DNA of 64,000 nucleotides from Dysidea avara (lineage: Eukaryota > Porifera > Demospongiae > Dictyoceratida > Dysideidae), in NCBI RefSeq assembly GCF_963678975.1, contig NC_089272.1, forward strand, positions 8,786,408 to 8,850,407, in the 5' to 3' direction. Shown piece after piece: positions 7,430-59,879 of the stretch (the stretch's first letter is position 1; each line of letters starts with the position of its first letter). The notes under the pieces were generated by a model. The model was not told the DNA's origin, searched no databases, and saw only the letters and a program-made list of their open reading frames with translations. The position numbers and the translations under genes were made by a program.

Positions 7430-7996
7430 TTAGAGCCCACATGCAGTAGCAAGGATGGTACGAAGAGAATGTACAGCAGCTTCTAATCCATTACGAATAC
7501 CTACACCAACTTGACCATGAGGAAGTAGCAAACTAGGAAGTGAATCACGCACAGACACACAACATACCTTGCTGACCAGACGACGAAGGGTCTCACCAAC
7601 AACAATTGGACGAAAGGCACCAGAACCCTTCACCAATGCAGTCAATGGTGCCGCGGCACCACAAAACCAAGGAGCAAGACGAGAATCAAGCTTACCAGCA
7701 AGTAAGGCTACATTAAGAGGATGACGATGGATCAAATCATCCCGAGCTGCAACATTGTCGTAGGCGGAAGCAACACCCCTAGAGCCTAGAGTACGTAGCG
7801 AATTACCATAACGTCCATCTGAGGCCCAGCGCAAAGCACATCTAATGTTCCCCTTCTCCAAAGACTCAGCAGAAGTAGCGACAGATCGAGCTGAAGAGCC
7901 CCGCTGAAGAGCACCTGCAGCTTGCCAAAGATCTAAGATACCATCAACACCAGATTTCCACTTGTTCAAACGATCACACAACAAAGAACCAATCAA
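7430..7996 (-). pseudogene. Reverse-transcriptase-like fragment, N-terminal half
   Basis: An open stretch of 188 codons on the minus strand. The segment GSGAFRPIVVGETLRRLVSK followed by GQVGVGIRNGLEAAVHSLR is the finger-palm entry of a reverse transcriptase family common in invertebrate genomes (usual wording GGIRPIAVGEVLRRL and LGVGVKGGAEAAVH). Its catalytic YxDD part is missing because the frame stops next to the miniature element at 7427. The matching C-terminal part of the same type of protein lies on the other strand at 16727-17619, beyond the MULE. The clade of the element is not clear to me. Confidence 0.65.
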
Positions 7997-8002
7997 ATAG
8001 GA

Positions 8003-8166
8003 GTCAGCCTATTTGAAGAACCAATCAAATAGGAGTCAGTCACTCTAAAAGAACCTCAAATAGGAGTCAGTCACTCAAATAGGAGTCAGCCTCAAATAGG
8101 AGTCAGTCACTCAAATAGGAGTCAGTCACTCTAAAAGAACCAATCAAATAGGAGTCAGTCACTCTT
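8003..8166. repeat. Tandem repeat, unit TCAAATAGGAGTCAGTCACTC
   Basis: About seven imperfect copies of a unit built on CAAATAGGAGTCA, some extended by CTAAAAGAACCAA. A lone copy of TCAAATAGGAGTCA lies at 17787-17800 on the far side of the MULE, so the repeat probably belongs to the RT element flanking it. Confidence 0.85.
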
Positions 8167-8260
8167 ATTGCAGCTGAGGAGTACTCAGCCTCGTGTCACA
8201 TTACTGAGCCTCTTTCACAATTCATTCTGGACCGGGGTACCAATTAGGCTATTGTTAAAC

Positions 8261-10375
8261 GCAGTGGCTATTCGTCCGGCAGCCGGACACCACCTTTCTG
8301 CGCTATTCGTCCGGCACTTCCTGTTTGCACACGTGAGGGCTCACGTTTCGTTCAGGTTGAGGCGCACTATTAAAACAGAAGAGTCTTGGTTGGTTCTTGG
8401 ACGAACTATGGCGGTATCCTTCGAAGTTGGTGACACCTTTTCGTCCTATAAAGATTTGAAGAATCGTGTTGAAGAGTTTGAAAAAATTAATTTCGTTCAG
8501 CTTGCCCACAGGGATTCCAGGACATTGGCAGCTGCAGCTAACAGGGCGCCTAAGGTAGTGGAGAAAGCAAATAAAGAGCTTGTGTATTACAGCATTGTGT
8601 TAACTTGTGTGCTTGGGGGAAAGAAGCACAAATGTGAAGGATCCGGTGTTAGACCAACACAAAAGTGAGTCCATCATCAGTGTCTGTAGTGTCAGTTATA
8701 CTCTGATCAAGTTTTTGTGTCTTGTGCATTGGCCAGAGGGTACATGACCAAATTTAATTGTGAAAATAGCCAATGGCTGACGGGTTGCTGTATTTGGTGG
8801 ATCAACGGATCACGTGATGAACATATTATTCTACTACTCATTGGATTATTGTGTAATACTCTTGATATAGTAATTATTTTACTAATAATGACAAATGCTG
8901 CACCTTCATCGCTAAAATGTCCACGCACTGTTTATGGATTTAGCTAGCTACGTAATCATAGATTAGATCCACTACCTAGTTTTAAACACAAAAGTGTTGT
9001 TTTTTTTGTCATTAATTTTAGTCAAGAGGATGAGACTACGTACAGCCAGCCCATACCACAACTGTAATCCTACAATCATTCTATAATTTACCTTCTTCAG
9101 GCTTTATTCTCATGGAAGGAGAGTGTGCTGAGGCCCAGACTGCTGAATTGAGTCAATTCACCGGCTTTCCTGTTAAGAATATTTGCTTCTATAAAGATTG
9201 TCAACAGTGCTAGCTTGCCAAGTTAACTTACTCAGGCTGTATCAGTTAAGTCAGTAAAATCCAGACTCCTCAAACACATACCTATCCATGGAAAATGATG
9301 TAGCTACTTGTGCAGCACCAGATAGTGGACTATATAGACTACGTACTGTATGCATAAGTTTAATATGACTGCCATAGCTAGCTAGCTAGCTAGCTAAATC
9401 CGTAAATCTGAAACGGTGAGTACAGTTGAGAAGTTAAAATGAAGTGAAGTGAGCAGTGTTTTGTCATTATACTAGTAAACTAATTATTATATCAAGAGTA
9501 TTACAACACTGACATTGCTTACACATCTCCAATGAGCAGTGGAATATGTTCATCATATGAACCGTCTACCCATGATCTATCGACCAATGATTTGCCCAAT
9601 ACAGCAACCCATGGCCGACTGCAATTTCTAACAGTTTATATACCATGTATACTATTTTATGTTCTGCTTTGCAGGACAATCAAGCAAGGCTGCCCAGCTT
9701 CAGTGAAACTTTGCTTGACAGAAGATTGCCAGGAGCTCACAGTGTCTCATGTCAATATGAATCACAATCATGATGTCAATAAGGTTGTAACTGATGTTGA
9801 TTGTGTTGGTTGTGTATGACAGCACTAATGCATAATCTACTGTATAGAGAGAAACTTTGGCAGGGGTAAACTTTAGTTAAATTGCATTTGGTGAAATAAA
9901 AACTTTGGCAAATTCAAGCTCATGCAATGTTTAGCTATAAAGAAGCTAATCTGAGACGCTATGAGTAAATGGCGGATTTGGCTAAATCACCAAATTTGTC
10001 GAAATTTCCCTCTATACGGTATTGGAGTTGTTGATACTATATACTTTTGTAACCTTTGGTTTGCCTGCACATTATTTATTTGTATAGTAAATTGAATTAC
10101 AAACATATTGTTAAAACTGGCCTTGAAAGCCTATGAAATAGTGTGCTGTGTATTCTAAACCACTTTGCATGGTAAATATGAGTTTGCTGTGGATAATTAC
10201 AGCTACTAAATTAAACAATTATAATGAAATTCCATTTTTTTGCTAATAGGAGATGTACAGCCATTTACCAAGGTAAAGAAAGTTAAACAGTGCAGAAAAG
10301 GATGAAGTGAAATTGCTATTGGAGATGAACGTGAATGAGAGACTAATACAACAGCACTTAAGCTTATAGGAGAAA
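8261..10375 (+). repeat. Left long terminal inverted repeat of the MULE
   Basis: It matches 14600-16707 in reverse complement. The encoded 73- and 76-codon stretches around 8707-8947 are identical in both copies, and a 95-codon stretch at 9532-9819 differs at one residue. The last about 140 bp (10235-10375) are a more diverged copy of transposase exon 3. It contains transposase-type exon 1 and exon 2 pointing inward. Confidence 0.9.
8408..9782 (+). pseudogene. Second copy of transposase exons 1-2 inside left TIR
   Basis: Exon 1 copy 8408-8667 (ATG, encodes MAVSFEVGDTFSSYKDLK onward) ends at a GTGAGT donor. The exon 2 copy, from about 9674, follows a TTTGCAG acceptor and encodes TIKQGCPASVKLCL and HVNMNHNHDVNK. 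The join keeps frame (codon AA|G). This is the N-terminal DNA-binding-like domain of ZSWIM/FAR1-type transposases. On this side the exons read toward the 3' end of the transposase gene, so they have no full gene to join; a diverged exon 3 copy follows at about 10250-10375. If the TIR holds the promoter, it would make transcripts antisense to the transposase 3' end. Confidence 0.7.
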
Positions 10376-10556
10376 AGATACAAAGCACTTAATTTAAGCA
10401 CTTCTCAGCAGGATTGTTATATGTAAAATTGTAGTTTTGTTGTGTAATACACTTGTATGGATTAATTGCTAAAAAATGTAAAACAACTAATAATGTGCAC
10501 AGACTTAAAGGGTTGATGTGTTGGAGTATGCAGTACTGCTATGGGGTCAACTAACA

Positions 10557-13500
10557 CTAAGTAAGAATGTTGTTATAACATGAACGACAAAACCACACTG
10601 CACACTTTGGCTTCTGCTTTAAATTCACGCACTTGAAATGATACCATATTAGGCAACTATCACATTGTATGGAATCATCTTCATCATCATTAATAGGGCG
10701 AGTACAGCTGCCACAGTAATAAGCAGGATTCTTTATTGCTTCCACCACATTATGTACAGCCATCCATCCATCCTGAGTGAAGTACTTCTTGCATGAATCC
10801 AAATGGACTTGGTTATCTAAACAAGATGTTGTAATGCGTTCTGGTAGAATTTCAACACCATCTTCCTGAATTAAGCCCTTTCGTGCAAAGACAATCTCTA
10901 GGTTCCACAAACCACTGTAGAATTACTAGAATACAGTACAACAATAGTGTATAATATAATAATTTATGTGACCTGATTTTGGAAAAACCTACATTTTGTA
11001 CACCATGTTAAAACATATATAGACAAACAGTATTTTATAAGGCCTCTATAATAATCCATGGGCATTCACATGCCTACAGAAGTCCATATATGTGTATGTG
11101 CCAAAACGGTAGGTGTTACAAAATCAGGTCACATTAGTTGCTCACCTCTTCCTCTGTCAAGTGGCAACTTCTTTAAAAATGGCACAGGCTTGTCCAATCT
11201 TTTCTTCTTTCTAGATAACCCAATTACAGTTTTCTCTGCCCCTTTTGGCCTGCCTCTCTTCTTTAGTTTAGGTGGCAGTGTTACATCTTGAAATTCTAGC
11301 AAACAAATTGTGTGATTTAAATACCAAACAGGTTCGCAGTTGAATTGAATGCTTGGTCTACCTGAATACTAAATAAATGGTGCATCTTATTGTAATTCAC
11401 GTTTGATAATTGAAAATCAGTGCACAATTGTCATGCACTGTCATAATCATCATACCGTAATTGGGTAAACATTTCTCATATTAAAAATTTACTAGATTTG
11501 CATTATAGTTTTTCAATGATGTGTCTGACATTAAGACAAATTTGTTGGGTGTGGTCAGATAAGATGTACATGACACACTTTTTGGGGGTACTACTGGGGA
11601 AAGGCACATGCTTAAATTAGTACACACCTTGGTCAAAACATATGGTCAAGAATTCATTATATACGTACAAGTGCTATAGCTTTACGATTGGCGTCCAGTA
11701 GCACAGGTGTGCTGCTATCATTATTGTCAGTTGCTAATCAAATTCACAAATGGAACTGTGCTACAGTATGTGCCTGCTTACCATCATCATTGTCCTCTCC
11801 TCCTCATCATGACTCTGATAAACCTCACCACCATCTATAGTTACTTCACTACTGACAGGTGGTACTAAGTGTCCTTCACAAGTGTCCACTGTATTGCTGA
11901 TCTGAACAGCTATTATCCAGTTATTAATGGCACACAGTATGCCAGAAATGTTGAAAACAAAAATTAGTTAATTTTTTTTGGGAAAGAACATAGGTGGCTG
12001 GAACCTAGCTACCTAGTGCATATTCAGAAATTCTTATGTTTTCCAAACATTGCTCCCCATAAGTTTCTGGCATTTGTGATCAGATTTACAAAAAGGTACT
12101 TTTTCATACTCAAAATTCTACCCATTTCTGAACCTTGAAGCTTCATAATAGGGCTGGAAGATAATTTAGATAAACAGATAATCTAGATACCTATTGTAAA
12201 TTAGATAAAGACTTTCATTATCGAGATGATAGTAAATCTCTGCAATCTAGTATATATCAACCACAGTCAGATGAAAAACTTTTGGAAAGGTATCAAATTA
12301 AATGAGGAACAGGTAAAACTTATGACTTGACGAGGACTTTACGTCAACAAATATGTAAAACTGTGCTTACAAAAGTACATTATTATATCGATATTCAAGA
12401 TAAGATGGTTGTCAGTTATCGAGGTCGAGATGTAGCCTTACTTCATAACTTTTTTATTTTCCATGAGTGCAGCTAAAGTGTTTAGCTGAATTTTGAAACT
12501 AAGAGCAAGTTAATCAGCATAAGGAATCAAGTGTTACATCATTTTGCTTGCTGGCATGTACAATGTGTGGAAAAGGAACCTTTCACAAATTCAGTCACAA
12601 TTTATAGTTACACACATATATGTATAATGTAAAACTTCAAAAGGCAAAAAATACTTTCCTTCAACCTCACATACAGTATTTATATAAAACATGCAATAAC
12701 AATAATTTTATAATGCAACCGTATTAACCTCTGTGCTATCAAAATAGATGAAGCACTTACTCAATAGCTATTAATTCTTAGGGTAGTAACGTTTCTTAGG
12801 ACAAAAAGTGCACTAAGTTTGAATGAGACAAATGCTAACTTTAACTACAAACATTAATGGGTGAGCAAGCCACAGAAGTTTTTGCTACACAATATGGTTA
12901 CTTACATGGATTATTCTCATTGCGGAGTTGCTGAATATTCTCATCATCTTCATCAAAAACTATCACACTTCCACCATGAGCCCAGGCATCATGAACCTGC
13001 TTCAGTGTATCCATTCTCTTCATGAATTCATCCATTCCTACTTCTGCTGCAAGAGAGGGTAATTTGTCAACAATTGCTTTGGCTTTCTGAAATTTCTGAT
13101 GCTGGGTAAGTGTGCTACGACTAGTCCCCTGAACAGTATCACCAGAACTTCTATAGCTAACCTGCAGGTGCATTAGGTATAGTACATGGTGTACATACCT
13201 CATACGAGCAATCTTGAACTGTTGAACTTTTGTTTTTGAAAATCTCCTTCAAGTAAGACAGCTTCCATCTATTGGCAACACCAACTTCAGAATACAGAGG
13301 TGACTTCTGCAAATCACGCACCGCAAATATGTGACGACAAGGCAGTTTCATAGTGTTAGCAAATGCACATTGGCAAGAGCTAGAAGTCACTGATAAAGTA
13401 CCTATGAAAAGCAAACTAACAATAATTGATGAAGCAATATTAATACCTTCACTGGAAGAAACTGTATAGAAATCATTTTGCTGAGTTAAAATGTTGACTT

Positions 13501-16500
13501 TTTTCCGCAATGTTTGTTGTTTCAAAACAAATTGGTAAGCATACGGTGTAACTAAGTTCACAAATTCATCTTGATCAGACTCAAAGACAACTGGCTTCTT
13601 CACCAATGCCATAACTGTGCCATGGTCCCATTCATTCCGTAACACAGATAGCACTGAAAAAAACTGGTCAAAAAATTGTGAGAGGCTAGCAAATTTTGAG
13701 CAGACACTCTTTACTTTGCTGTTGATTGATTCCAACCTGTTGTTGGTTCTTTCACCAAAGGTAACACAAGCTGACTTAAAACATTCTACCCACTCGTGCT
13801 TGATAACATTCCAGTTAGCATTATAGTAGTTGACAACAGATTTAGGAGCAGTTTCTAGCAAAGTGGCATAATGCTTTTCATACTCTTCTTCTGAACGAGA
13901 ATACCCAACTTTGTTATGATCTCTAAAGAGTAATCCCTTTCTCCAGGAGTTTATCAGCTGTCACTTCCCTCCGAAATGACCTTAAAGCATGAAACAAGCA
14001 TATCTGTAATTGTACTCCTGGAAATTGCTCCTCAAACACAGTTCTCACTGTAAAATCTTTGTCCGTAACTACAACACCCACTTTGCACCATGATGGGTTA
14101 ACAGATTTGAAAGCCTTTACCCTGTTGGTGATGGCTTCCTTGGTTTCAAGTGATGTAAGGAACAGTGAAACTATTTCGCTTTGTCCATTGCTGTCAATCA
14201 CTAACATTAAGTACAGTGGCATCCGAAATTCATTAAGTTTATAAGTAGCATAAAAAAAGACTTCTGGGAAACAATTGAAATTGTATTTCACCATGGCATC
14301 TTGGAAAACAGCCCTGTAAATACTTTCTTTTCATCAACAAATACATCCACAGCTGACCCTAAATTTAGGATAAATTGTTACACTATTATATAATATAAAC
14401 ACATCTTTACATGTACAATAAGTTACAGCACACATCTAAACATCTTTCGATTTAATTGCACTGTAAAACTAAAACAGCAAAAATAAATATACCTTCAAGC
14501 TTCCTTAAACGGCTAACTAAACCATCCAAATCATTCCCGGAACTACTTGAATTCAGTTCTCTTTGTACATTTGAAATGTCTTTAAGAGTGACAACTTTTC
14601 CAGAGCTGCTTAAGTGCTGTTGCAATAGTTTCTTGTTCACTTTCATCCCAAAAAACACTTTTGCTTCATCTTTTTCGGTACTGTTTAACTGCCTTTGCCT
14701 TGGTAAATGGCTGTACATCTCCTATTAGTAAAAAATGGATTATCATTATAATTATTTCATTTAATAGCTGTAATTATCCACATCAAACTCATATTTACCA
14801 TGCAAAGTGGTTTAGAATACACAGCACACTATTTCATAGGCTTTCAAGGCCAGTTTTAACAATATGTTTGTAATTCAATTTACTATACAAATAAATAATG
14901 TGCAGGCAAACCAAAGGTTACAAAAGTATATAGTATCAACAACTCCAATACCGTATAGAGGGAAATTTCGACAAATTTGGTGATTTAGCCAAATCCGCCA
15001 TTTACTCATAGCGTCTCAGATTAGCTTCTTTATAGCTAAACATTGCATGAGCTTGAATTTGCCAAAGTTTTTATTTCACCAAATGCAATTTAACTAAAGT
15101 TTACCCCTGCCAAAGTTTCTCTCTATACAGTAGATTATGCATTAGTGCTGTCATACACAACCAACACAATCAACATCAGTTACAACCTTATTGACATCAT
15201 GATTGTGATTCATATTGACATGAGACACTGTGAGCTGCTGGCAATCTTCTGTCAAGCAAAGTTTCACTGAAGCTGGGCAGCCTTGCTTGATTGTCCTGCA
15301 AAGCAGAACATAAAATAGTATACATGGTATATAAACTGTTAGAAATTGCAGTCGGCCATGGGTTGCTGTATTGGGCAAATCATTGGTCGATAGATCATGG
15401 GTAGACGGTTCATATGATGAACATATTCCACTGCTCATTGGAGATGTGTAAGCAATGTCAGTGTTGTAATACTCTTGATATAATAATTAGTTTACTAGTA
15501 TAATGACAAAACACTGCTCACTTCACTTCATTTTAACTTCTCAACTGTACTCACCGTTTCAGATTTACGGATTTAGCTAGCTAGCTAGCTAGCTATGGCG
15601 GTCATATTAAACTTATGCATACAGTACGTAGTCTATATAGTCCACTATCTGGTGCTGCACAAGTAGCTACATCATTTTCCATGGATAGGTATGTGTTTGA
15701 GGAGTCTGGATTTTACTGACTTAACTGATACAGCCTGAGTAAGTTAACTTGGCAAGCTAGCACTGTTGACAATCTTTATAGAAGCAAATATTCTTAACAG
15801 GAAAGCCGGTGAATTGACTCAATTCAGCGGTCTGGGCCTCGGCACACTCTCCTTCCATGAGAATAAAGCCTGAAGAAGGTAAATTATAGAATGATTGTAG
15901 GATTACAGTTGTGGTATGGGCTGGCTGTACGTAGTCTCATCCTCTTGACTAAAATTAATGACAAAAAAACAACACTTTTGTGTTTAAAGCTAGGTAGTGG
16001 ATCTAATCTATGATTACGTAGCTAGCTAAATCCATAAACAGTGCGTGGACATTTTAGCGATGAAGGTGCAGCATTTGTCATTATTAGTAAAATAATTACT
16101 ATATCAAGAGTATTACACAATAATCCAATGAGTAGTAGAATAATATGTTCATCACGTGATCCGTTGATCCACCAAATACAGCAACCCGTCAGCCATTGGC
16201 TATTTTCACAATTAAATTTGGTCATGTACCCTCTGGCCAATGCACAAGACACAAAAACTTGATCAGAGTATAACTGACACTACAGACACTGATGATGGAC
16301 TCACTTTTGTGTTGGTCTAACACCGGATCCTTCACATTTGTGCTTCTTTCCCCCAAGCACACAAGTTAACACAATGCTGTAATACACAAGCTCTTTATTT
16401 GCTTTCTCCACTACCTTAGGCGCCCTGTTAGCTGCAGCTGCCAATGTCCTGGAATCCCTGTGGGCAAGCTGAACGAAATTAATTTTTTCAAACTCTTCAA

Positions 16501-16561
16501 CACGGTTCTTCAAATCTTTATAGGACGAAAAGGTGTCACCAACTTCGAAGGATACCGCCAT
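10557..16561 (-). CDS. MULE transposase (ZSWIM type), spliced, damaged
   Basis: Nine exons can be followed by GT-AG signals on the minus strand: 16561-16305, 15295-15187, 14721-14493, 14358-13447, 13401-13199, 13161-12906, 11901-11782, 11295-11146 and 10914-10557 (stop TAG). Order of parts: N-terminal ZSWIM/FAR1-like domain (exons 1-2); MULE catalytic core in exon 4 (MPLYLMLVIDSNGQ, VVVTDKDFTVR, CLFHALRSF, then NNRLESINSKVK with the likely catalytic Glu); SWIM finger SCQCAFANTMKLPCRHIF; an AT-hook-like KKRGRPKG (exon 8); a PHD-like finger in the last exon (YYCGSCTRP to WFCRSCYNN). It should bind the TIRs and cut DNA in the nucleus. Oddities: the usual first catalytic Asp is absent (FFYATYKLN where DATYKLN is usual), exon 4 needs two frame changes (near 14305 and 13930), and the exon 8-9 join is out of phase. 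The long intron 11902-12905 and the other introns hold nothing else recognised. Confidence 0.8.
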
Positions 16562-16707
16562 AGTTCGTCCAAGAACCAACCAAGACTCTTCTGTTTTAAT
16601 AGTGCGCCTCAACCTGAACGCAAGTGAGCCCTCACGTGTGCAAACAGGAAGTTCCGGACGAATAGCGCAGAAAGGTGGTGTCCGGCTGCAGGACGAATAG
16701 CCACTGC
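14600..16707 (-). repeat. Right long terminal inverted repeat of the MULE
   Basis: Reverse-complement partner of 8261-10375. It contains the functional-side exons 1, 2 and the start of exon 3 of the transposase, plus their presumed promoter between 16561 and 16707. An inner CTAGCTAGCTAGCTAGCTA tract at about 15575-15594 is shared with the left copy. Confidence 0.9.
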
Positions 16708-16726
16708 GATTGTCGCAACAGAACAA

Positions 16727-17619
16727 CTATCTCGCAAGTCCGCAATCCGCAATTCCAAATCTTCCAACTATTCGGATAGATCTTCCAGTTTGCGTACCCA
16801 CTTGGATCCCTCCTCTCAACGCGCTTTAGATCTAGCCTCAGCCAAAGGGGCCTCCAACTGGCTTACCACCCGGCCCCTACAGGAACAATGCTTTACACTG
16901 CATAAGTCCGCGTTTCATGATGCCGTGGCACTACGTTATGGGTGGTCTCCTCAGCGGACTCCTGCTCACTGTGCATGTGGGACTTCCTTTTCAGTGGAGC
17001 ATGCTTTATCCTGTCCCAAGAGTGGCTTGCCTTCTATCCGACACAATGAGATCAGAGATCTAACTGCTACCCTGCTGACTGAAGTATGCTCTCAGGTAGC
17101 TGTTGAACCAGAGCTCCAGCCGGTTTCACAGCAGGACTACCCTGCTTCTGCCAATATCCAAGATGGTGCCCGTCTTGACATCGCCATGAATGGTTTTTGG
17201 GGTGGAAGAAGTGAAAATGTTTTGTGGATGTGCGGGTGTTCAACCCTCTGGCTGCTTCTAATGCGTCCTCATCACTGGCCTCCTGTTATCGGAGGCACGA
17301 GAACATTAAGAAACGTGAGTATGCTCAGAGAATTCGTGAGAAGGAGCATGCCTCTTTTACCCACCTGGTAATGTCTGCCTCTGGTGGTCTGGCTCATGAG
17401 GCTTCTGTTTTTTATCAACGCTTGGCTCGTCAACTTTCAAATAAGTGGGACGATGATTACTCTGTTGTCATGGGGTGGTTAAGGTGCTATCTATCTTCCT
17501 CTCTCTTGCGGTCCTCCATACAATGCATCCGCGGAGCCCGCTCATCCATCGGTCACTATGTTAAGATTCCCCCAATTGTGGAGCTGATTCGGGCAGAGTC
17601 TCAGTTTGCCGTAGACTAG
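16727..17619 (+). pseudogene. Reverse-transcriptase-like protein, C-terminal half
   Basis: Two overlapping plus-strand frames (to about 17230 and from 17224) encode a conserved C-terminal region found behind RTs in many invertebrate genomes: SAKGASNWLTTRPLQEQ, FHDAVALRYGW, CACGTSFSVEHALSCPKSG, IRHNEIRDLTATLLTEVC, then DVRVFNPLA and MSASGGLAHEASVFY and VMGWLRC. One frame change lies near 17225. The histidine-cysteine cluster CXCX8HX4C may bind zinc. The stop is at the border of the 73 bp insertion at 17617. The fragment is probably the partner of the N-terminal half at 7430-7996, now on the opposite strand. Confidence 0.65.
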
Positions 17620-18959: not shown

Positions 18960-21004
18960 CTAATTCAATTGAAATTGTTTGTAATTAATTTTCAAAGTGT
19001 GCTAGCTAAAAGAGCAGAGCTCTCTACCCTGATTCATGAACATCAACCTGACATCATCTTTGGAACTGAAACGTGGCTCTTACCAAACATCAATTCCACA
19101 GAATTTTTTCCAACCGGATATACTTTGTTCCGACAAGACCGATCTGATGGATACGGTGGGGTTTTACTGGCTTTTAGAAAAGACTTAAGTGTAATAGAGT
19201 ACCAAATAACTAACTTGAACCAGTGTGAAATAATTGCCTGTACAGTTGTGAATAACACCTACTCACTAGCACTTTGTAATGCTGTAGCTACTAGACTTTA
19301 TAGTAGATCATGGCTTCTCTCAAACAGTATTGACCCCAACAAGAAACCAGAACATATTAGATATCTTCCTTACTAATAGACCAACAACTATTACATCATG
19401 TGAAGTCATACCAGGTATCAGTGATCACGAAATTGTCTTGATCTTAACTTCAATTACTGTGCCACACCACAAGAACAAAGAAAGAAACATCTTCCTATGG
19501 CATAAAGCCAACTTCGACAACATAAGGAATTACATCACAGAGTTTTCCAACACATTCTTACATGTTTATGACCATAGTGACCCAATTGGTATACTATGGA
19601 ATGAGTATAAAGCACTATGTATAGCTTGTATGGCGATGATGCCACAAAAGAAGTCTATTAAACACCAACTACCTTGGATCACAAACAGCATTAAGAGACT
19701 GTCAAGGAAAAAGCAGAGAAAGTACAATTTAGCACGTCGAACAAACACAGATGATAACTGGGCACCCTATCACAACTTGAAGAAACAAGTCCAAAGATTG
19801 TGTCGTACCTCACACAATAACTATGTTTCATCCCTTTTAGATTCTCACAATAAATGTACAAAAAAAAGTTTTGGAGATACATCAAAAGCATGCGTAAAGA
19901 TCAAGTTTCCATCAATACCCTACAGGTAGATGGTGAATCCTACTCTGACAGTTGCTCTAAAGCAAACGTTCTTAACAATTACTTCTCTTCTTTTTTTATT
20001 AAAGATGAACAGTCTCCTCATCCTGACATAAATAGTACACCAGTTCCTAACATCCCACCAATAACAGTTGAAGTAGATGGAGTGTATAATCTTTTAGTCA
20101 ATCTGGGCCCTCACAAAGCAACAAGTCCGGACAACATCCCAACAAAATTACTTAAAGAGACTGCACAGCAAATGGCTCCATTACTTACATTAATTTTTCA
20201 AGCATCGCTTAACCAAGGAAAAATACCTTCTGACTGGAAATCAGCTAATGTAGCACCCATACATAAAAAAGGTAAAAGAACAGATCCTTCAAACTACAGA
20301 CCAATTTCCCTGACTAGTGTTTGCTGCAAGACTCTAGAACACGTCATATACTGTTCTATATTCTCGCATTTAGAAAACCATAAGGTATTAAATGATAGTC
20401 AACATGGGTTCCGTGCACGACGATCCTGTGAAACCCAGCTAATTGGTGCCATCACTGACTTCCACCAATGCCTACATGATAGAAAGCACATTAAAGCTCT
20501 ATTTCTTGATTTTGCTAAAACGTTTGACAAAGTCTCTCATGACAAGCTCTGTCACAAACTATCTCACAATGGAATTAATGGACAACTCCTTTCATGGATT
20601 AAAGACTATCTATCTGATCGGTCTCAATCAGTAGTACTTGATGGAATATCTAGCAGACCACATACAGTTACTTCAGGTGTCCCACAAGGGACAGTACTAG
20701 CCCCACTGCTATTTCTACTATACATCAATGACAAAACTACCTCTGTAAACAGTACAATCAGACTGTATGCAGACAACGTCCTAATATACAGAGTTATCAA
20801 TTCAGAAAACGACTGCCTAATCTTACAAAATGATATCAACAAACTAGAACACTGGGCTGACTTATGGTCAATGAAATTCAATCCTACCAAATGTGTGCAC
20901 TTAACAATAACAAACAAGAGAACTTCCTTTAAACACAGTTATAGCATTTATGACCAACAACTACAACAAGTTTCATCAGCCAAATATCTGGGAGTCACTA
21001 TTGA
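18960..21004 (+). pseudogene. LINE ORF2: endonuclease and reverse transcriptase, 5' and middle part
   Basis: Endonuclease start (HQPDIIFGTETWL, FRQDRSDGYGG), a deletion between about 19260 and 19335, then its end (ILDIFLTNRP, PGISDHE). The linker KKFWRYIKSMRKD follows near 19860. RT motifs: NYRPISLTSVCCKTLEHVI, QHGFRARRSCETQL, FLDFAKTFDKVSH (motif A), SGVPQGTVLAPLLF and RLYADNVLIY, where the usual YADD reads YADN, so a catalytic Asp is lost. At least two frame changes (about 19300 and 19870). The reading frame is cut at 21004 by the palindromic element and resumes at 24291. Confidence 0.85.
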
Positions 21005-24000
21005 GGTGGGGTCTATTCTACAGAACGGAACGGAACGGAATGATGGACTAAACCACGGAACGGAACACTTTCACAAATTGAAGCTTGCAACTTACCATTG
21101 CTGAAACTGCCCTTATAAGTTAGCTGTGGCACCTCCAGTGGGTGATTAAACATAAGATAAAAAGAATTAACAGATCGATTGTGGGTTTTTGTTGGTTGTC
21201 ATTAGTAATGAAGTATTATTGTGGGATGAGCTGTATCAGTGATGTTCATCCATGGTTCATCTACGGAAGAGAACTTTATGTGAGCTGTTTTTCTTATTTA
21301 GACTTTAGAAAACAGTCTGGGCCGGCCTTTCAAGTCATAAGTCAGTGTACAAATAAAGCAAGCAGGAAGATACTGGTAACAGGAAAGAGCCAGCTGAATT
21401 AAAACTTGAAGAATTCTGTGTAGTGTGTGTGGAGCAAATATTTTGGCAGACCACAAGGAGGGTATATTCTGCAAACATCACTGAAGTGTATCCATGGAGT
21501 TATTTATATATTAATAGCTGGTGCAGTGGACTAATGCCGTATTCAATAGTGAGCTGATTTTATTTGTTGCACAATTCAAGGATGTGTCTGACTGCTAGCC
21601 TTGAATCAGACTAAATGCCAAAACTCCAAGATCAGCCAAATCTCAATTATAAGCCGCATGTGAAACCATGCCCGTAGCCACCAGGCAAACGAGATTTGCA
21701 CCAGTATGTGTTTGTAATTTCAATGTATCTAGTCAGACCTGAAATGGAACACTCACATTAATTACATACCACCTAAGAATCCTAGGATTTCTTAAGTGTA
21801 ACATTTCACATGCTTCACTTCAAACAAAACAGGTTAAATTTTTTCATCTATTTTCAAGTGACTCCCAGTCCAACTGGTCCATGAAATTACAGTGAGATCA
21901 CATGTATTTGTTACAGTGTGGACTGTCCTGTATTGGATCTACTCTAGAGTTGAGATTTCAAGGTAGACTCACTGCCAATGTACTGACACTAGTACTGTTG
22001 TAGCATATTTAAGTGGAGGACAAATGAATACAGTAATGTTAGATTATTTATGTATACAAATTTTTCATAATGAAATTGATATCCCATTTTGATTTGTACT
22101 TCCACTTTGCAACATATTTAAGAACAAGAAGCTACCACACTTTTAATCTCCAACCACTGTCATTAATTAACCAAGATCTCACCAGTCTGTAATTCACCTT
22201 ATTGTAGTGATTTTATTAATTCATCTGTATGTTTTCTTCATTTTCCTTTGAAGCTGTACCAAGAGTTCATAATAAGGTGGAGAGTGTCTAACTTGAATGC
22301 ATTCACCAAACACCCTGCTTAAAGTAACACCTCATCCTTATTTCAGAACAAAGGCTTTACCTTCAGCAACACTAATCAACAGTTTTCTATCCCCAGTAAA
22401 GGTATTGATTTGATGAAAGGTGAACTTTAAGCAGGGTGTTTGTACAGGCCATACTGAGAGTTAGACACTCTCCCCCATACAAATATTATGAACTCATGGT
22501 TGTACAGTATAGGTAAACAAAGATAATTTTCTCTCCCGTCTTATTCTAGGATTTCTATTGACTAGGAAAATTCAAATATTTGTATACAGGCTCAAATTTG
22601 AGAAAATATAAAGAAAGTGAATTAATATTATACAGTCAGTTTGCTTTTGGATATTTAATGTCTCCAACCGCAACAAAAATTCGATGAATCCGTGCATCTC
22701 ATCACTGGTCGCCTGAACATTCTGAAAGTGATACCTCACTCAATCAACCATATATTATTCTGTTTATTACACTGAATAAAGTCATGATCACCTAGCCTTT
22801 TCATGTGACCAGTAACTTTCTAGTTAATTTCTCTGTGGATATAATCCTCTGAAACTGAAGAAATTGAGTGGTCTTCTAAACTATTTATCTTGTCAAGATA
22901 AGCAGAAACAACTGACATCCAATCGGTTACTGTATTGTAGTAACAAAACTTGCCTTGGTCATGCAATAAATGAATTAAAGAGACCTGCTTAATTTATCAG
23001 GTAGTAGAACAATCACTTAAGTAATGTTTTATAATAATCCTATTCCATTTTCCTGGAGGTTCCACTGATAAAATGCAATTTCAGCAATGATAGCAGCTAG
23101 CCAAGTTGCAAGTTGATTCAGAAAGCATTTCATTCTGGAAAATAGACCCAATCCAGAATTCAATTCAGTACTCAGGCTGAGATATCTGGCAATAGTCCAC
23201 TAAATATATTGTATGAACATCAATGAATCATTGATGTTCACACAATATAGCCTCCTTGAGGTATCTGAATGTTTGCTCCTAACACACTGCACAAAATTCC
23301 TTTAGATTCTGCTTAGACTGAGTTGATTCAGCTTGTCACCATACTTGTTTCCTTTGTAGTGTAGCTATACACATACTGATTTATGCCGATTAGGAAGGCT
23401 GGGCCTCAGACTGTACATTCTAAAGTCAAAGTAAGTAAAAATAACTCACATACTAGTAAAATCAAGTCGCTCCCTACTTGATATATCCGAAGATGAACAC
23501 ACTGAGTCAGCTATTCCCACAAATAGTACTTCGTTACTAGTGACAACCAACAAGAACCCACAATCGATCCTTAAATTCGTTTTATCTTTCTTAGGGTACG
23601 TTTGATTACCTGCTGGAAGTGCCACTGATAACTTGTACAGCAATGGTAAGATGCTAGCTTCAATCTGAGAAAGCATTCCGTTCCGCAGTTTAGTCCATCA
23701 TTCCGTTCCGTTCCGTTCCACCCCGGGTATCACTCTTTTCACCCTATTTCATAACCCTACAGAACTTAGAAAAATAACGGTGAACCAAAAAGGCGAAAAA
23801 AAGTGCAATATTGAAGAGGGATCGAACCCAGGATCCCAGTGTGATGGTCCAGTGTGCTACCGATTATGCTACCGCTGCTAGCTCCCTTGATTCCCTTCTT
23901 TTGTATCTTATAAATGTGAATAACGAAATAAGCTGTATATAGTAAGAAGAACCTAACCCTAAAGGTGAAGAAGAAACCAAAGCTGAACTCTAACCCTAAC

Positions 24001-26115: not shown

Positions 26116-28543
26116 TCATCCTCCCCCCGTTGACCATGTGAAAGACAAGGTCAACAAGGTACAAAAAGAAATAAATCATACAACAAAATAATAAGACTGT
26201 CAGTTTACTGTTCATCATGGAGCACAGTCTGCATCCAATCTCCTGCTAGTTGAGCGGCTGCTCTTCTGGGTCGGCAAATCGTAGGTTCAGTGGATACTGT
26301 ATCAACTGGCATTGCTGATGGTTCAATTGAGCTAACAACTTTAGGAGCTTCATTTCTACCGTCTAGATCTTCAGTACAACTAATCTCTAATGGATAGAGT
26401 TGGTTCACAGGACGTCTGAGGGTGGTAGTCTTTCCTTCTCTAGATGGGATACGCACTACAGCCCATCTCACTCGTCCCTCAACGCCCTTTATCAACGTTT
26501 CCACTTTAGCTAGCTTCCAAAATCCTCTTCGACTGCTATCATCATACAGTACTACTACATTCCCAGGACAAAGTTCTTCCTTAACATCACCTCCCTTGCC
26601 GTAGCGGTGACAGTCTCTTAATGACAAGAGGTATTCTCTTTGCCACCTCTTCCAGAAGTGATCAAAATCTTATGGAAATTTTACATTCTCCTGCTCAACA
26701 CATCTTGGGAAACGGTGAAGTCTTCATCATTATGTTCATAATGTGTTGGCAGATTAGTCACTCTTCGCCCCAGGATCAAATGTGAAGGGGTAAGAGGTTC
26801 TTCAACGTCATCACTGGTCATGTACGACAGAGGTCGAGAATTCAATATCATCTCCACTTCAGTGAGGGTGGTCAAGAGCTAATCATAAGCAGGGGCGTAG
26901 CCAGCCAATATTTGATGGTTGGGCATAACATGCACACACAAGAAACACACTCACTTTCATGTGAGACATTATCAAAGAAAAATATTAAAAACTGTATGTA
27001 CACAAGGCCTACAGCTACCTATACTATAGTGTAAATAAATGCTGCTTGCATGCATGCAAACATTTACTAGCTATATGCTATCTATTAAACTCGTAGGGCA
27101 GGCATCCACCGACGATCGCCGTAGCTGAGTATCACGTGACATCAAACTGCTGAACCTACAATGTAAACAGTTTATCATATATTTACCACAATCAACTGCC
27201 AGTATAGTTTACAGACCAACCACCACAGCGATATGAAATGCTTTTTCAATTAAACGCCACATGGTCCCAAATGAAAGCCGGGGGCGCTAATTTATGAACT
27301 ATAACACAAATAGAGTGAAGTATCAATTATCGGACAATCTGATGTTCGGACTTTTGCCACTCACTTCCTGGAAATCCTGCAGCTTAGTTTATTGTACCAA
27401 AAGGTAGGCTACAATAAGCAATAATTATCCTCCAACAATCAGCTTTGTGTGATTAAAAGCTTAAGAGTTACAGCCAATAGTATGCTTAGTCCGATAAAAT
27501 CTATGCTCGGATAAAACTATCAGTTGTCGGACTTTGATTTTTACTACCAGTAAACAATGTCCAATTTATTTCAAATTTGTATGCAAGATACCTGTACTCA
27601 TTAGCTATTAATGGCCAAAACATGGTTTCGTTATCTTTAGCATAGAGGGAGTACGAGCCTCCCAATTTTTAGCGGTATTGTCGGACGCCCTCCGCTTTAA
27701 TTTAGCCATGCCCACCAACAGAGTTTGTATGCTTTTGCAACAAATACACCAGTGCTAAATCACAGAAGAAGGTAAATAAATATCTCGCAAGAGTAGAGGT
27801 GTGCTTTAAAGTTGATATTCAGGATATTTCCATTGGAACGCAGTATTTTTGGCTCCTAAATGAAGGAGATGCGCGCAAGGTGGAAAAATGAAGTTATGTA
27901 AAACCACCTTCTGACCACCTACATATACTAGTCTTGGTGTCCTATCACAAATACTGTCACGGAAATTGAAAGACTTTTCTTTCTCTGCCTTATATGGGTG
28001 AAACAAAAAGGACGAAAATGTTGCTTTGTGCATCCATAGAAGGTAGAAAATGGAACATCTTTTCATTTCTAGGTGGTATTCGTGATTGAGACACCAAGAC
28101 TAACAAATGTGGTTGGTCAGAAATTTGTGCCTCGTAATTTCATTTTCCTACCTAGCGTGCATCTCCTTCATTTAGGAGCCAAAAATACTGCGTTCCAATA
28201 GAAATATCCTGAATATCAACTTTAAAACACACCTCTACTCTTGAAAGATATTTATTTACCTTCTTCTGTGGTTTAGCACTGGTGCATTTGTTGCAAAAAG
28301 CATGAACTCTGTTGGTGGGCATGGCTAAATTAAAGCGGAGGGCGTCCAACAATACCGCTAAAAATTGGGAGGCTCGTACTCCCTCTATGCTAAAGATAAC
28401 GAAACCATTTTTTGGCCATTAATAGCTAATGAGTACAGGTATATTGCATACAAATTTGAAATAAATTGGACATTGTTTACTGGTAGTAAAAATCAAAGTT
28501 CGACAACTGATAGTTTTATCCGAGCATAGATTTTATCGGACTA

Positions 28544-31286
28544 TATATATATATTTGTTAATGTACAAACTCAATCATGAGTATATTCGTACATATGTAG
28601 TTAGCTACTTATTTACAAATTTATATAATTGTTAAATAAATCAAGAGATGGAGCTTGGATAATATGATCATCTAGTTGGTTCCATAATTTTATTGTAAAA
28701 GGAAAGAAGGAGTTCATATAAGCATCTACCCTTGTTGGCAACTGCAGAAATCTTTGATGGTGACCTCTAGTTGTGGTGTTGCTTGGTCTAAACTGTTGGT
28801 GCACATTAATATCTACCATGTCATTAATTATTTTATACATTAGTGAGGCTCTCAAACTATTTCTTCGCTTCTCCAATGTGTGCCATTGTAAACTGTTCAA
28901 CATTTCTGTCACACTAGCTGTTCTATTATAGTTATTCATCACAAACCTTGCTGCTCTTCTCTGTACCATTTCTAATTTATAGATGTTATGTTCATGGTAT
29001 GGGGACCACACTGTACTGGCATATTCTAGAATGGGGTGAACAAATGTATTATAGCAGTAGCATTTAACTGTTGCAGGACACTTTGCTAGATTCCGTTGTA
29101 AAAGACTTCTTACTGAGTTTGCTTTTGCAGTGATCATGTTAACGTGTTGTGTCCATTTAAGATTTTTGTCGATAATGACACCCAGATACTTTGTATGACT
29201 TACTGATGGTATTAAGGTATTAGATAGGTAATAGGATGATTGAACATAATTCATTTTATTGGTAATTCTCAAAAATTCAGTCTTTGAAGGACTAAATGAC
29301 ATCTGCCAAACATCAGCCCATTGTGATAAAGTATCCAAATCATTCTGAAGGGCTACCACATCTTGTTCAGAATGAATACTTCTGTAGAGTAAAGTATCAT
29401 CTGCATACAACCGAATTTTTGATGAAATATTGTGTGCAATATCGTTAATGTAACATAGAAACAAGAGTGGTCCCAACACTGACCCCTGTGGCACTCCTGA
29501 AGTTACTTTACACAGTTGGCTATATTCACCATTCACAACAACTTGTTGGGATCTGTCTGTCAGGAAGCTTTTAATCCATCTTAATATATTTCCACAAATA
29601 CCATAGTGACTAAGTTTGCTGCAGAGTCTGTTTATAGGTATGGTATCAAAGGCTTTAGACATATCTAAGAAAATTGCATCAATTTGTCCTGATAGGTTGA
29701 GAGTAGTGGCAAAGTCATCAATTGTTTCAATTAACTGGGTTTCACAAGATCTTCTGGATCTAAAGCCATGTTGTTGGTCAGCAAGAACATTGTGTTTATT
29801 TAAATGAGAGTAGATATTTGAAGATATTATATGTTCTAGGGTTTTGCACACAACACTGGTAAGAGAAATTGGCCTATAATTTGCTGGTAAACAGCGATCC
29901 CCTCTCTTAAAAACAGGTACCACAAAAGCTTTCCTCCAATCATCAGGGATAATTCCTTGTTCTAAGGATCCTTGGAATAACATTGTAAGGCAAGGTGCTA
30001 GTTCTGAAGAGAATTCTTTCAAAAATCTGGTTGGAATATTGTCAGGGCCACCAGCCTTTTGAGCATCCAAGTTAGACAGTAATTGTGTCACTCCTTCAAC
30101 ATTAACTTCAATACAGTCCATATCTGGAAAAGGTGGGCCTGGTACTTCTGGTGTTACTGAAGTATCTTCTATTGTAAACACAGACTTGAATTGATCATTA
30201 AGAGCATTAGCCTTATCTGTATCATCTGTGATTGTGTTCCCTTCAACTGTCAGGGTTGTGATTCCAGTAGTATCTTTACGACAATTTTTAATGAAAGACC
30301 AAAACTTTTTGTTGTTCACTCTAGGGTCAGATATTCTTGACACATAATTGTAGTATGCTCTGCGGCATTCATGCTGAGATAACTTTTTTATGTTTTTGTA
30401 GTTGGACCAATCACTTGCTAACCCAGTAGAACGGGCTTTATTATATAACCTTTTCTTTTTACTACAGATACGTTTGGTTCTGGTGGTTACCCATGGTTGG
30501 TTGAATCTAGAACTAGGATATGTGTAAGGCACAAGCTCCATACAATCCACACACATTGCTTTGAAGTCATTCCACATCTTCTGTACACATGAAGTGGTTG
30601 TATTAGAGCTAGTGAAACTTGAAGTAAATTCTGTAATAACTTGTGATAACAGTTGGAAGTCAGCTTTTGCCCACTGATAAAGTTTTCTTTTAGCTGGACA
30701 CCTGTACTTTGCCGTAATGAATGATTCAACATAAACTGCATCGTGATCACTGATTCCTGGGATGGGGATACATTTATTTATAAGATTTGGCCTGTTTGTA
30801 GCAAAAATATCCAGAGTGTTATTTCCCCTAGTGGGAAAGGATACCATTTGTGAGATACCTGAATCACAGAAAAGTTCCAGTACTAAGTTACAAAAAGACA
30901 CAGGGTAATTATTTCCATTATGTGAATTTGTAAGCCAGTCAATGTTAGGGAGATTTATGTCTCCTCCAATCCAAATAATTGCCCCAGGGAAGTCAGTTAT
31001 TATGTCCTGTATAAGATTACACAATGACTGAAGATATGCAGCATCACTATTTGGTGGTCTATAGACAGCCAGTACTATAAGTAGGTGATGATTTAGCTGG
31101 AGTTTGCAAGCAACTGCTTCCACATTGGTTGTAAGAGTTAAGCTTTCCCAATTGTACATCTTACTACATGCCAGAAAGACACCGCCATAACCATCATTTC
31201 TGTCTTGTCGAAATGCTTCAAAGTGTTGTGGTGCAAATATCTCAGATGATGAAATGGTAGGATTCAGCCATGATTCTGTGCCAACT
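28544..31286 (-). mobile_element. CR1/L2-like LINE, 5' truncated, single open ORF2
   Basis: Inserted in the right arm of the palindrome. The 4 bp ACTA on each side (28540-28543 and 31287-31290) restores the arm sequence when one copy is removed. It ends at its 3' side in a TATATATATA tail. It carries 3' sequence identical to a 53 bp insert at 32211-32263. Confidence 0.85.
28613..31286 (-). CDS. LINE ORF2 polyprotein: endonuclease and reverse transcriptase
   Basis: An unbroken frame of about 890 codons: the first Met is at 31159, but the frame is open to the truncation point at 31286, where endonuclease sequence is already in progress (VGTESWL, FRQDRNDGYGG). Endonuclease: WIGGDINLPNIDW, NTLDIFATNRP, PGISDHDAV. 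Linker KKFWSFIKNCRKD. RT: NYRPISLTSVVCKTLEHII, QHGFRSRRSCETQL, FLDMSKAFDTI (motif A), SGVPQGSVLGPLLFL, RLYADDTLLY (catalytic YADD intact). The C-terminal thumb region reads WKRR-like EKRRNSLRASLMYKI. It copies LINE RNA at nicked target DNA. It lacks ORF1 and the first part of the endonuclease, so the copy cannot be autonomous, but the missing frame damage points to a recent insertion. Confidence 0.9.
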
Positions 31287-32210
31287 ACTAAGCATACTAT
31301 TGGCTGTAACTCTTAAGCTTTTAATCATGCAAAGCTGATTATTGGAGGATAATTATTGCTTGGTGTAGCCTACCTTTTAGTACAACAACCAAAGCTGCAG
31401 GATTCCCAGGAAGTGAATGGCAGCTGTCCGAACATCATATTGTCCGATAATTGATACTTTACTCTATCAGCATGCCATGAAAGCTTCGTCCCAGACTTAC
31501 AGCAGCCAATGTACATTTTGCATGAATCTGGTGTAAACCACAACTCTGTTAATCAGTACAATTTGTGCACGTGATACTTTATAATGACTTGACCTTTTCT
31601 CCATTTCCAGCTCCATTTGCATATGCTATTATTTTTATCTAGAAGAGTCACGTTTTCCTGTTTTCTTTCATCAGCAGTAAGGTAGGCTTTACGGTACTTT
31701 CCTTATCAAAAAATACGTTTGACAAATCCACTCAGGAAACGAAATCTTTTGCTGTCAGCACCATCCACACTGAATCCTACTGACGATTATCACTCACTGT
31801 GAATCAGAGGTACAGTACCACGACTGTAGTGTACCACGCTTTGACTCCATTTTAAATTTCGAATTTAAACCGCGCCAAGGAGCGTGGCACGTACGTCTTT
31901 TATAGGGACTTCCCAAGGGATTTTCCACGTAGTGGATCACGTGATATACCATCTATCTCGATCTCTTCTGAAATCATGGTTCAAGAAAAGAGGTACATGT
32001 TTACGCTTTACAGTATTAAAGTAGCGTGGTTTTGTGTGCTGCTGTGAATCCTCGCGTGAATCTTAAGCTACTTGTGATGGTTGGGCAAGAGTTTGTGATG
32101 GTTGGGCAAGAAACTGTGATGGTTGGGAAAATGCCCGCCCATGCCCACCCTTGGCTACGCCACTGATCATAAGTCAATTTGGCTCTTCCAATTGCCTTTC
32201 TGAGGTACCT

Positions 32211-33649: not shown

Positions 33650-34844
33650 CACAGTGAAATAAACACTGTAGTGCACTAAAATTTCTTGCTCCCCCTTGGC
33701 ACCCCCTGACAGTGTCTCCTAGATCCGCCTATGTTCCTCTCCACAACTAGTCCTTGGGTTTTCACATATAGTGGCCCTGCAAAATCTATACCAACATATG
33801 TAAATGCTGGATCATCCTTCACTCTGAATTGCGGTAACGGCGGAGGCTGTGGAGTACGCTGAGGCAGACCCTCGTATCGTCGGAAAATCACACACCTGGA
33901 TAACACCTGATGCACAACCTGCCTCCCTTGAACGGTCCAATACCTTGACCTAAGAGTTTTCTTGACTCCATTATGCATGATTCGTTCATGCGCTTCCTTT
34001 ATCACCAAAACTGTCAAGGGGTGATGCTTCGGTAATAACACAGGATGTCTTGTAGTCATTGGGAGGTCCGCATTCTCTAATCTACCTCCACATCTCCACA
34101 ACTGCTTATCGTCCAAGTAAAGACCAAACTTCCTTTTCCACATGGGAAATGCCTTATCCGTAATTAGTTCATGCTGTGCTGTCAAAAGCCACCTGGATTC
34201 TGCTTCAGCTATCTCCGCTGAGCTCACCTCCGAACATTCTACCATCTGGCGTCTGCCTATCTTACTCTTCAATATCTCCACAAATCTCAGCACATAAGCA
34301 GTGACACGCAACAATCTCCTTAGTCTACTAAACTTCTCACAATCCACAACTTGCTTCAAATTAACTAACTCACTTGTACTCAGTAAGGAGTGTGAAGCAC
34401 TGGATTGGTTAGCCTTGAGCTCCTCCAAACACGTATCGGACATGACTGTCTCTTCCTCTGGTACATCGGTCAAGTTAACCAGCCAACTTGGGCCGTGCCT
34501 CCACAACACGTTCCTGTTCAACTCCGAAGGCGTTGTCCCTCTCGATGGTACGTCTGCTGGATTCTCTTTACCAGGGCAATGATGCCAACATTCAATTGGT
34601 ACTAGCTTCCGTATCTCGTTGACCCGGTTTTGGACGAATGGTTTCCAGTCCTTCTCGAGTCCTCTGATCCAGCACAACGCCACCTTCGAGTCTGTAAAAC
34701 AAAACAGAGTGTTAAATTCCATCTCTTGTTCAAGTGCAGAGGACACACTACTTATCAACTTAGCAAGGAGAAGTGCTGACAGTAACTCCAGTCTAGGGAT
34801 TGTTTGTGCCTTAACTGGGGAGACTCTTGTCTTAGCGGTCACAA

Positions 34845-35655
34845 ATTTTGTATTTGTATTTGTATTTTAAGGATAAAGGTTAATGCCTGTACATCCATAA
34901 ACAAAATTAATAATTATTATGTACTTAGCTATTCTAATTACTATACAAAATCAAACAAGCAATTACTGTAGTGTCTGTCCAGCAGTGTTTTAAAATCATT
35001 GACAGAGGGAGAATCAACAATAGATTGGGGTAATGAATTCCAGTCATTGATTACTCTGTTACTATAAAAATTATATCTTGTATACGAATTAGTGTGATGT
35101 TTGAATAATTTCCTTGTGTGACCTCTTGTTACAGTAGAAGTGGATGGGGCAAATAAATGATTTTCTATATCATAACTGCCTTTGAGAATTTGGTACAAAT
35201 ATATCAAATCACCGCTTCATCTACGGTGTTGTAAAGATGGTATGTTTAGATGTCTTAATCTGTCGTAGTATGATAAATGGTTGATAGATGGAATCATTCT
35301 GGTTGCTTTACACTGCATTCTTTCAAGTTTTTGATTGTCAAGTGTGTAAGAAGGTCCCCATATGACATTGTTATATTCAACAATTGGGCGGACAAGTGTT
35401 TTATATAGTTTTACCATGACATCAGAGTCCTTACACTCACAGATGAGACCTAGAATCCGGTAGGCCTTTTAACTACCATATCTGTGTGAATGTGAAATTT
35501 TAATTTGAAGTCAATTTGTATGCCAAGATCTCGAATGTTATCCAATAGCTCCAGCTGGATTCCTGCTATAGTATAATTGCCGGTGTATGGAGCATTGCCA
35601 ATATATAAGACCTTGCATTTTACAAATTCAACTGAATTTCCCACTAAAGTTTCAA
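34845..35655 (-). pseudogene. LINE 3' fragment inserted in the BEL fossil
   Basis: The minus strand encodes the RT C-terminal part of a CR1-like LINE: LLDNIRDLGIQIDFKLKFH, VKLYKTLVRPIVEYNNVIWG and LERMQCKATRMIPSINHLSY, then YDRLRHLNIPSLQHRR, and FYSNRVINDWNSLPQSIV at the end. The 3' tail is an AAATAC repeat (34845-34868, minus strand). It is 5' truncated with at least two frame changes. Confidence 0.85.
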
Positions 35656-58694: not shown

Positions 58695-59399
58695 ATAGTC
58701 CAGTCATTTTACTGTTTAACCTTTAAATAATTGCAACAAAAACAGTTTCAATTGTTTCTGGTACAGAAAAATGTGCTTTACAACATATCAAAAGTCTCGG
58801 TGAGTCTCGTGAGGGGCAAGTGCTTTTTTGTGACCTTTTTATAGCCATTTTTAGATATTTTCAGTTCTACTTCATCTGTGCATTATCCAAACCACTCAAA
58901 TTGGGTACAAAATGATTGGTCTTACCGTAAGCAACAATTTGATACTTGTTTGGTGTCCATAGCTTAATCTGTTTCAAAGTTATAACCATTTTACCTGTCA
59001 CTTTAGTTTCGCCCACGCATATAATTGAATTTTGTTAAAGCAATTTCTTTCTGGATTAATGATACTTTAACCATGGCAGGAGACAAGTTTTCACAACAGA
59101 GGGTCATGATGAAACTTTATATGTATTTGTTACCATGGAAACCATAAGTGTGTACTTTTGTACAGTTATTGTGATAATTATTGTAAGATATCAACAACAC
59201 TTCAGATGATATGCATTACGGAAGATGTACACAACTGAGTCTAAAGTAGAATGAGTGCAATACAAATATATTTACTCATATCTTCATCATTATCATCATC
59301 ATCATCATTGCTTTTGATTACTTCTGAATTAGTACATCCCGACTCTCTGTATTTGCCATAAGCAACAGAAAACGTTTTGCTTACTTATTAATTTATTTT

Positions 59400-59790: not shown

Positions 59791-59879
59791 ACTGGTAAGT
59801 CTATTAGATAGTACACTCAGCCCGACAGTCACATCTAGTTATGCTATCATGCCAGTCTGGAGTCTCAGTCTACTTTTTC

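Follow-up and report, generated by a model that had tools for sequence, protein, structure and literature searches.

As read from its sequence, a MULE of the sponge Dysidea avara combines known features in one layout: terminal inverted repeats (TIRs) of 2.1 kb that bear coding exons and enclose a nearly complete, broken transposase gene. The element lies in a stretch of 64,000 nucleotides of contig NC_089272.1 (hereafter, the window), to which all positions refer. The explanation that we favor, and to which we attach moderate confidence, is that a decayed animal-type MULE had its 5' end copied onto its 3' end by repair and that its arms later underwent arm-to-arm conversion. If so, the element is a clear sequence example of a cut-and-paste transposon turning part of its own coding region into a homogenised TIR.

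An earlier note on this DNA had described inverted ends of 2.1 kb containing the promoter side and the first exons of the gene, and alignment of the two arms bears this description out. In a blastn comparison, the left region 8257-10363 was identical to the reverse complement of the right arm at 2,068 of 2,107 positions (98%). A column recount of the arm alignment (8260-10363 against 14608-16708) gave 38 differing columns out of 2,104. A repeat search of the window recovered the same two arms, but in pieces. The arms are separated by an interior of 4,244 bp, which holds the gene body, and their length places them among the long TIRs of MULEs (>100 bp). The TIR motif, with up to three mismatches allowed, is confined to the two element ends within the 64 kb window, and blastn (E 1e-5) found no further matches to the element elsewhere in it. 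The arms and their parts are as follows.

8260..10363, plus strand: left arm of the inverted repeat, consisting of the TIR and the putatively copied 5' gene end (blastn, repeat search, column count)
14608..16708, minus strand: right arm of the inverted repeat (blastn, repeat search, column count)
8260..8348, plus strand: outermost left arm with two copies of a CTATTCGTCCGGC-type motif, mirrored at 16621-16708
8349..10186, plus strand: presumed homogenised tract, 7 differences in 1,838 columns against the right arm (column count)
8782..9610, no strand assigned: imperfect gapped internal inverted repeat extending over most of intron 1 (repeat search)

The exons were modelled from the sequence together with the domain matches. 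As had been proposed before, the first two exons and the beginning of the third are present in both TIRs, and the two sets are oriented inward. Each arm has an ATG (8408 on the left, 16561 on the right) opening an exon 1 of 257 nt with the donor GTGAGT, an exon 2 of 109 nt between an AG acceptor and a GT donor, and an exon 3 that starts after an AG acceptor (10250 and 14721, respectively). The GT/AG sites thus match at exons 1-3, and the splice signals are common to both arms, again as expected from the first reading. Exons 1 and 2 differ between the arms by one base each, at 8464 and 9733, respectively. Exon 3 is shared over 114 nt, of which 19 differ between the arms; on the left, codon 9 of this exon is an in-frame TAA. 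Internal sequence of the element is thereby repeated in inverted orientation within its TIRs, which is the property looked for in Galileo-type elements.

8408..8664, plus strand: left exon 1, 257 nt, donor GTGAGT (sequence reading)
9675..9783, plus strand: left exon 2, 109 nt (sequence reading)
10250..10363, plus strand: left exon 3 fragment, homologous to right exon 3, in-frame TAA at 10274 (arm comparison)
16305..16561, minus strand: transposase exon 1 in the right arm, ATG at 16561 (sequence reading)
15187..15295, minus strand: transposase exon 2 in the right arm, with exon 1 encoding a ZSWIM3_N/FAR1-like zinc-finger domain (Pfam)
14493..14721, minus strand: transposase exon 3, first 114 nt inside the right arm (sequence reading)
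13923..14358, minus strand: start of exon 4 and RNase H-like core, with a frame break shortly past the exon start (PF21056, PF10551)
13157..13960, minus strand: core continued in another frame, and SWIM-like zinc finger (PF04434, below cut-off)
12898..13248, minus strand: open reading frame with the following exon and a weak ZSWIM1-3_C match (profile below cut-off)
11129..11368, minus strand: open reading frame with a KKRGRPKG stretch, probable exon
10557..10922, minus strand: C-terminal exon with a PHD finger and the gene stop (open reading frame, profile)

Judged from these matches, the right set begins a MULE gene of ZSWIM3/FAR1 type, with an N-terminal zinc finger, a MULE core, a weak SWIM finger and a PHD finger. 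The earlier note had called the element a MULE and had taken the right set for the start of its transposase gene; both assignments hold, since the core matches PF21056 (ZSWIM1-3 RNase H-like, E 6.2e-28) and the MULE profile PF10551 (E 5.7e-17) over the cut-off, and since on the minus strand the ZSWIM3_N domain is followed by the core and the PHD exon. Exons 1 and 2 together cover positions 2-102 of the 102 in the ZSWIM3_N profile, with matches over the cut-off on the right (E 1.8e-15) as well as on the left. The FAR1 profile matched the left and right N-terminal domains below the cut-off (E 2.5e-05 and 3.4e-05, respectively), as did the SWIM-like finger (PF04434, E 0.032) and ZSWIM1-3_C (E 0.051) in the frames listed above. 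The PHD finger of the last exon was matched with E 4e-08. The KKRGRPKG stretch looks AT-hook-like by eye. MULE-derived FHY3 transcription factors are known from animals, including the sponge Amphimedon (PMC10027918).

The gene body shows signs of decay. The core is interrupted by two frame breaks: the first lies a short way into exon 4, and the second shifts the frame somewhere in the interval 13923-13960. Where the first catalytic Asp would be expected, within a DATYK motif, the sequence reads FFYATYK, with Tyr instead of Asp (codon beginning at 14252). The PF10551 match starts one residue past this Tyr, at profile position 6, in agreement with the expected Asp site. The core accordingly lacks an intact DDE triad, which is a property of active members and not of MULE membership. 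A sequence search of the PDB with the core gave as its best match 6xg8, a 'Mutator family transposase', at a nonsignificant E of 0.082, and that alignment stops short of the first Asp. Transposition of Muta1 was lost when any one of the DDE residues was mutated (PMC5225508). Because of the two frame breaks in the core, the Tyr in place of the first catalytic Asp and the failure to find a clean target-site duplication (see below), this transposon copy is probably inactive.

The differences between the arms are distributed unevenly. The inner edge (10187-10363) differs in 27 of 177 columns, the outer 89 columns differ in four, and the tract between them is nearly identical in the two arms. The longest stretch with at most seven differences reached 1,838 columns, compared with at most 1,140 in 20,000 shuffles. 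As for the 11 differences outside the inner edge, the placement of four of them within the outer 89 columns was reached by 17 of 20,000 shuffles. Intron 2 is 98% identical between the arms. Intron 1 is 99.5% identical, and both arms have its internal inverted repeat, a probable nested element, at corresponding positions; this near-identity implies that the arms share their history after the nested repeat arrived. A short inverted pair in intron 2 (9838-9862 and 9997-10021; 80%, E 0.006) possibly represents the ends of another small nested element.

A fresh single duplication would be evenly similar along its length, so the patchiness of the arms argues against it; the pattern fits an older inverted duplication that was subsequently homogenised by gene conversion. 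It may be asked whether the arms merely reflect a misassembly or an inverted duplication that arose locally only very recently, as the high identity across most of the arm might suggest. We consider this highly improbable, given an inner edge at about 85% and an outer end at about 95% identity, with single-base differences and indels scattered between them, and given that the 4,244-bp interior was searched for a second match in the window and has none. A mirror produced by the assembly was rejected for the same patchy divergence. We also considered coding constraint on the difference between left and right exon 3, as suggested by dN of 0.14 and dS of 0.46. Randomisation did not support it: the third-position excess was reached by 677 of 5,000 random placements and the amino-acid similarity by 543 of 5,000, while the 12 amino-acid changes compare with a random mean of 12.9. 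Constraint was therefore dropped as support.

According to the explanation that we favor, the element before the change would have had a short 3'-side end of about 90 bp, and the outermost ~90 bp of the present arms probably are the original short TIR. Repair using the 5' end as template would have extended the 3'-side end inward, thereby placing, downstream of the stop codon of the gene, an inverted copy of the promoter side, of exons 1 and 2 and of the beginning of exon 3. The arms would have diverged after the copying, until arm-to-arm gene conversion (or crossing over with conversion) re-homogenised about 1.84 kb; the inner edge and the outer end would have escaped conversion and hence be more diverged. 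This order and direction of events are read from one copy of the element. A similar process has been proposed for Galileo, in which a break in one TIR is repaired from the other and the copied tract exceeds the TIR length (PMC3573991). A bacterial insertion sequence is reported to undergo recombination between its TIRs, with conversion, that leaves the promoter in its correct place (PMC3004938). With exons 1 and 2 present in both arms, inversion by arm-arm recombination would leave the gene of the sponge element joined to a proper start.

The ends of the element bear on an alternative origin. A clean target-site duplication of 8-10 bp was sought at both fixed and sliding TIR edges, and none was found. 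The sequences at the edges (8251-8259 and 16709-16717) match at six of nine positions, a score equalled by 254 of 20,000 random 9-mer pairs from the window. With sliding edges, the best match was 7/8 or 7/9, the edge then falling inside the right TIR. The imperfect match may be an eroded duplication, or the ends may derive from two events. As an observation of its own, degenerate tandem repeats with a CAAATAGGAGTCAGTCACTC-like unit occupy 7983-8165, just outside the left end.

In the absence of a clean target duplication, a fusion origin retains some probability. In such a case, two related MULE copies lying in opposite orientations would have been joined by a deletion or by ectopic recombination, the second copy contributing its 5' part as the left arm and the main copy its 3' part, with partial homogenisation afterwards. 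The strongly diverged inner edge of exon 3 and intron 2 (27/177 columns) could come from that second element instead of from divergence after copying, and ends without a clean direct repeat are also seen in chimeric Galileo copies, twelve of which are bounded by different 7-bp sequences (PMC3573991). However, this origin requires a second copy nearby and conversion of nearly the whole arm, whereas the 64 kb window contains no other match to the element and has the TIR motif only at the two ends. We regard fusion as rather unlikely and moderately favor copying by repair within a single element.

The left set retains coding capacity. If spliced like the gene, it would give a product of 130 amino acids consisting of the ZSWIM3_N domain (residues 6-118, E 7.5e-16) and eight residues of exon 3 before the TAA. 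This agrees with the suggestion of the earlier note that the left exons could yield a truncated N-terminal protein retaining a DNA-binding-like domain and lacking the catalytic core. Past left exon 3, the first plus-strand AATAAA is located only at 11372 (an AATATA is present at 10953), so a left transcript would overlap the last exons of the gene in antisense. Alternatively, an AATAAA at 9895, within intron 2 and present in both arms, could end unspliced transcripts early. On the gene strand, neither AATAAA nor ATTAAA occurs from the gene stop to 10080; a search for 13 poly(A)-like hexamers from 10556 to 10080 returned one weak form, AATACA at 10154. With no AATAAA or ATTAAA in that interval, the gene transcript may continue into the left arm, and its 3' end may there pair with its own exon 3. 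The predicted duplex between exon 3 and the 3' flank has an energy of -134.0 kcal/mol, whereas the most stable of 17 control stretches reached -44.3. The region 7800-17200 gave no Rfam match at gathering scores.

Self-regulation by the left set is therefore anatomically possible as a hypothesis. KP elements make a truncated repressor. By analogy with their part in the repression of hybrid dysgenesis (PMC4938643) and with the silencing of MuDR by Mu killer (PMC3440606), the element might belong to an evolved self-regulating MULE family, whose TIRs hold the promoter and first exons and whose left set limits transposition through antisense or hairpin RNA and through a competitor protein that can only bind DNA. 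The ZSWIM3_N domain retained in the left product, the splice signals retained in both arms, the near-identity of exons 1 and 2 and the antisense overlap expected from the poly(A) signals would all suit such a family. Nevertheless, we find it improbable. The core of the analyzed copy is broken, simple decay may account for the TAA of left exon 3, and conversion, which spans the introns too, explains the identity of the exons. The broken core together with the missing clean target duplication speaks against a functioning element that regulates itself. If the layout has any regulatory effects, we take them to be by-products.

A bolder idea, which we consider a long shot, is a MULE family in which the promoter side and first exons belong to the TIR and are kept identical by conversion in each round of repair. 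With a symmetrical start, inversion would never split gene and promoter, and the competitor and antisense RNA would form a built-in brake. If other copies of the family share the layout, they would show a natural element gaining a truncated DNA-binding protein and a self-complementary RNA in cis. Long TIRs as a protection from inversion between element ends would thereby become a testable idea.

The layout had also been called unusual. This holds insofar as a search of the open-licence literature, which is no proof of absence, found no coding exons in the TIRs of a copy with a nearly whole gene; it has to be qualified by two partial precedents, Galileo (PMC3573991) and Mu killer (PMC3440606). 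Galileo, a member of the P superfamily in Drosophila, has long TIRs that recruit internal sequence in inverted orientation (PMC3573991). It resembles the sponge element in the lengthening of its TIRs by such sequence, in the repair or conversion proposed for it and in the presence of some chimeric copies without identical target duplications (PMC3573991). However, in the relevant part of that report the named recruited segments are the spacers F1 and F2, outside the coding segment, whereas the sponge element recruits coding exons (PMC3573991). The longest Galileo TIRs described there are about 1.26 kb and never occur in nearly complete copies, while the sponge element keeps nearly its whole gene (PMC3573991). 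Moreover, the sponge element has a MULE core instead of a P-superfamily transposase; it resembles Galileo and is not a member.

Mu killer of maize contains two copies of TIRA and inverted 5' mudrA sequence (PMC3440606). It is likewise MULE-derived, and, as in the sponge element, two copies of the 5' TIR face each other, each leading into 5' sequence of the transposase gene (PMC3440606). Both of its halves extend into mudrA by 1.298 kb, and the middle of MuDR is apparently missing, according to the account of a locus whose center could not be sequenced (PMC3440606). The sponge element differs in that it has not lost the central region but retains an interior of 4,244 bp with the gene body. Mu killer silences MuDR (PMC3440606), and the likeness drawn here is one of DNA layout.

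Other MULEs are more distant parallels. Muta1 of Aedes and arthropod MULEs share the N-terminal zinc finger followed by the MULE core, and TIRs >100 bp are known among them (PMC5225508, PMC13359780). Yet Muta1 has a TIR of 145 bp and a transposase of 504 aa, in contrast to the exon-bearing 2.1 kb TIRs and PHD tail of the sponge element (PMC5225508), and the TIRs reported for arthropod MULEs range from 13 to 1,193 bp, compared with 2.1 kb here (PMC13359780). Plant MULEs with multiple long TIRs also have rearranged ends (PMC3310237), but those in the descriptions considered have additional TIRs, no transposase bar one decayed exception, and no transposase exons in the TIR (PMC3310237). Two further candidates were rejected as precedents. 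Tm1 Mutator/Foldback elements of nematodes have composite TIRs with no exon-bearing TIR in the descriptions at hand (PMC3169594), and the long repeats of KolobokP are direct, not inverted (PMC9587614).

Searches for relatives covered collections of prokaryotes, viruses and plasmids, where little was expected. For the core protein, 77 pattern stretches in prokaryotic genome contigs and eight in viral contigs included no relative, and plasmids gave no match. The second core frame hit three pattern stretches in viral contigs, none of them a relative, and PF10551 was absent from the one virus record inspected (L004). The 16-base TIR motif occurred in 18 stretches of viral contigs, and none of the 18 matched the element by blastn or the core by tblastn. 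A 25-base TIR pattern had 0 matches in genome contigs.

Judging by its reverse transcriptase frames and a Pao-type peptidase, the surrounding region is transposon-rich. The reverse transcriptase open frames are located at 28616-31312 (899 aa, with an endonuclease domain) and 19854-21101 (416 aa), and the Pao-type peptidase match at 33679-34866; an F-box protein is present within the window as well and, like the introns and the reverse transcriptase frames, marks the DNA as eukaryotic. A direct duplication in pieces, 94-98% similar and about 15.0-15.2 kb apart, links 21020-23719 with 36261-38748. Inverted repeats of about 80-110 nt lie at the ends of this duplication, and the two regions probably are copies of one mobile element. 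A near-palindromic repeat occupies 27310-28543, with arms at 27487-27941 and 28090-28543 (89-98%), and the adjoining 27310-27490 has an inverted copy at 31287-31467 (91%). Finally, a second inverted-repeat element at 58718-60966 has arms of roughly 520 bp, with pieces 92-94% complementary and a longest open frame of 108 codons, and looks like a non-autonomous element of the foldback type.
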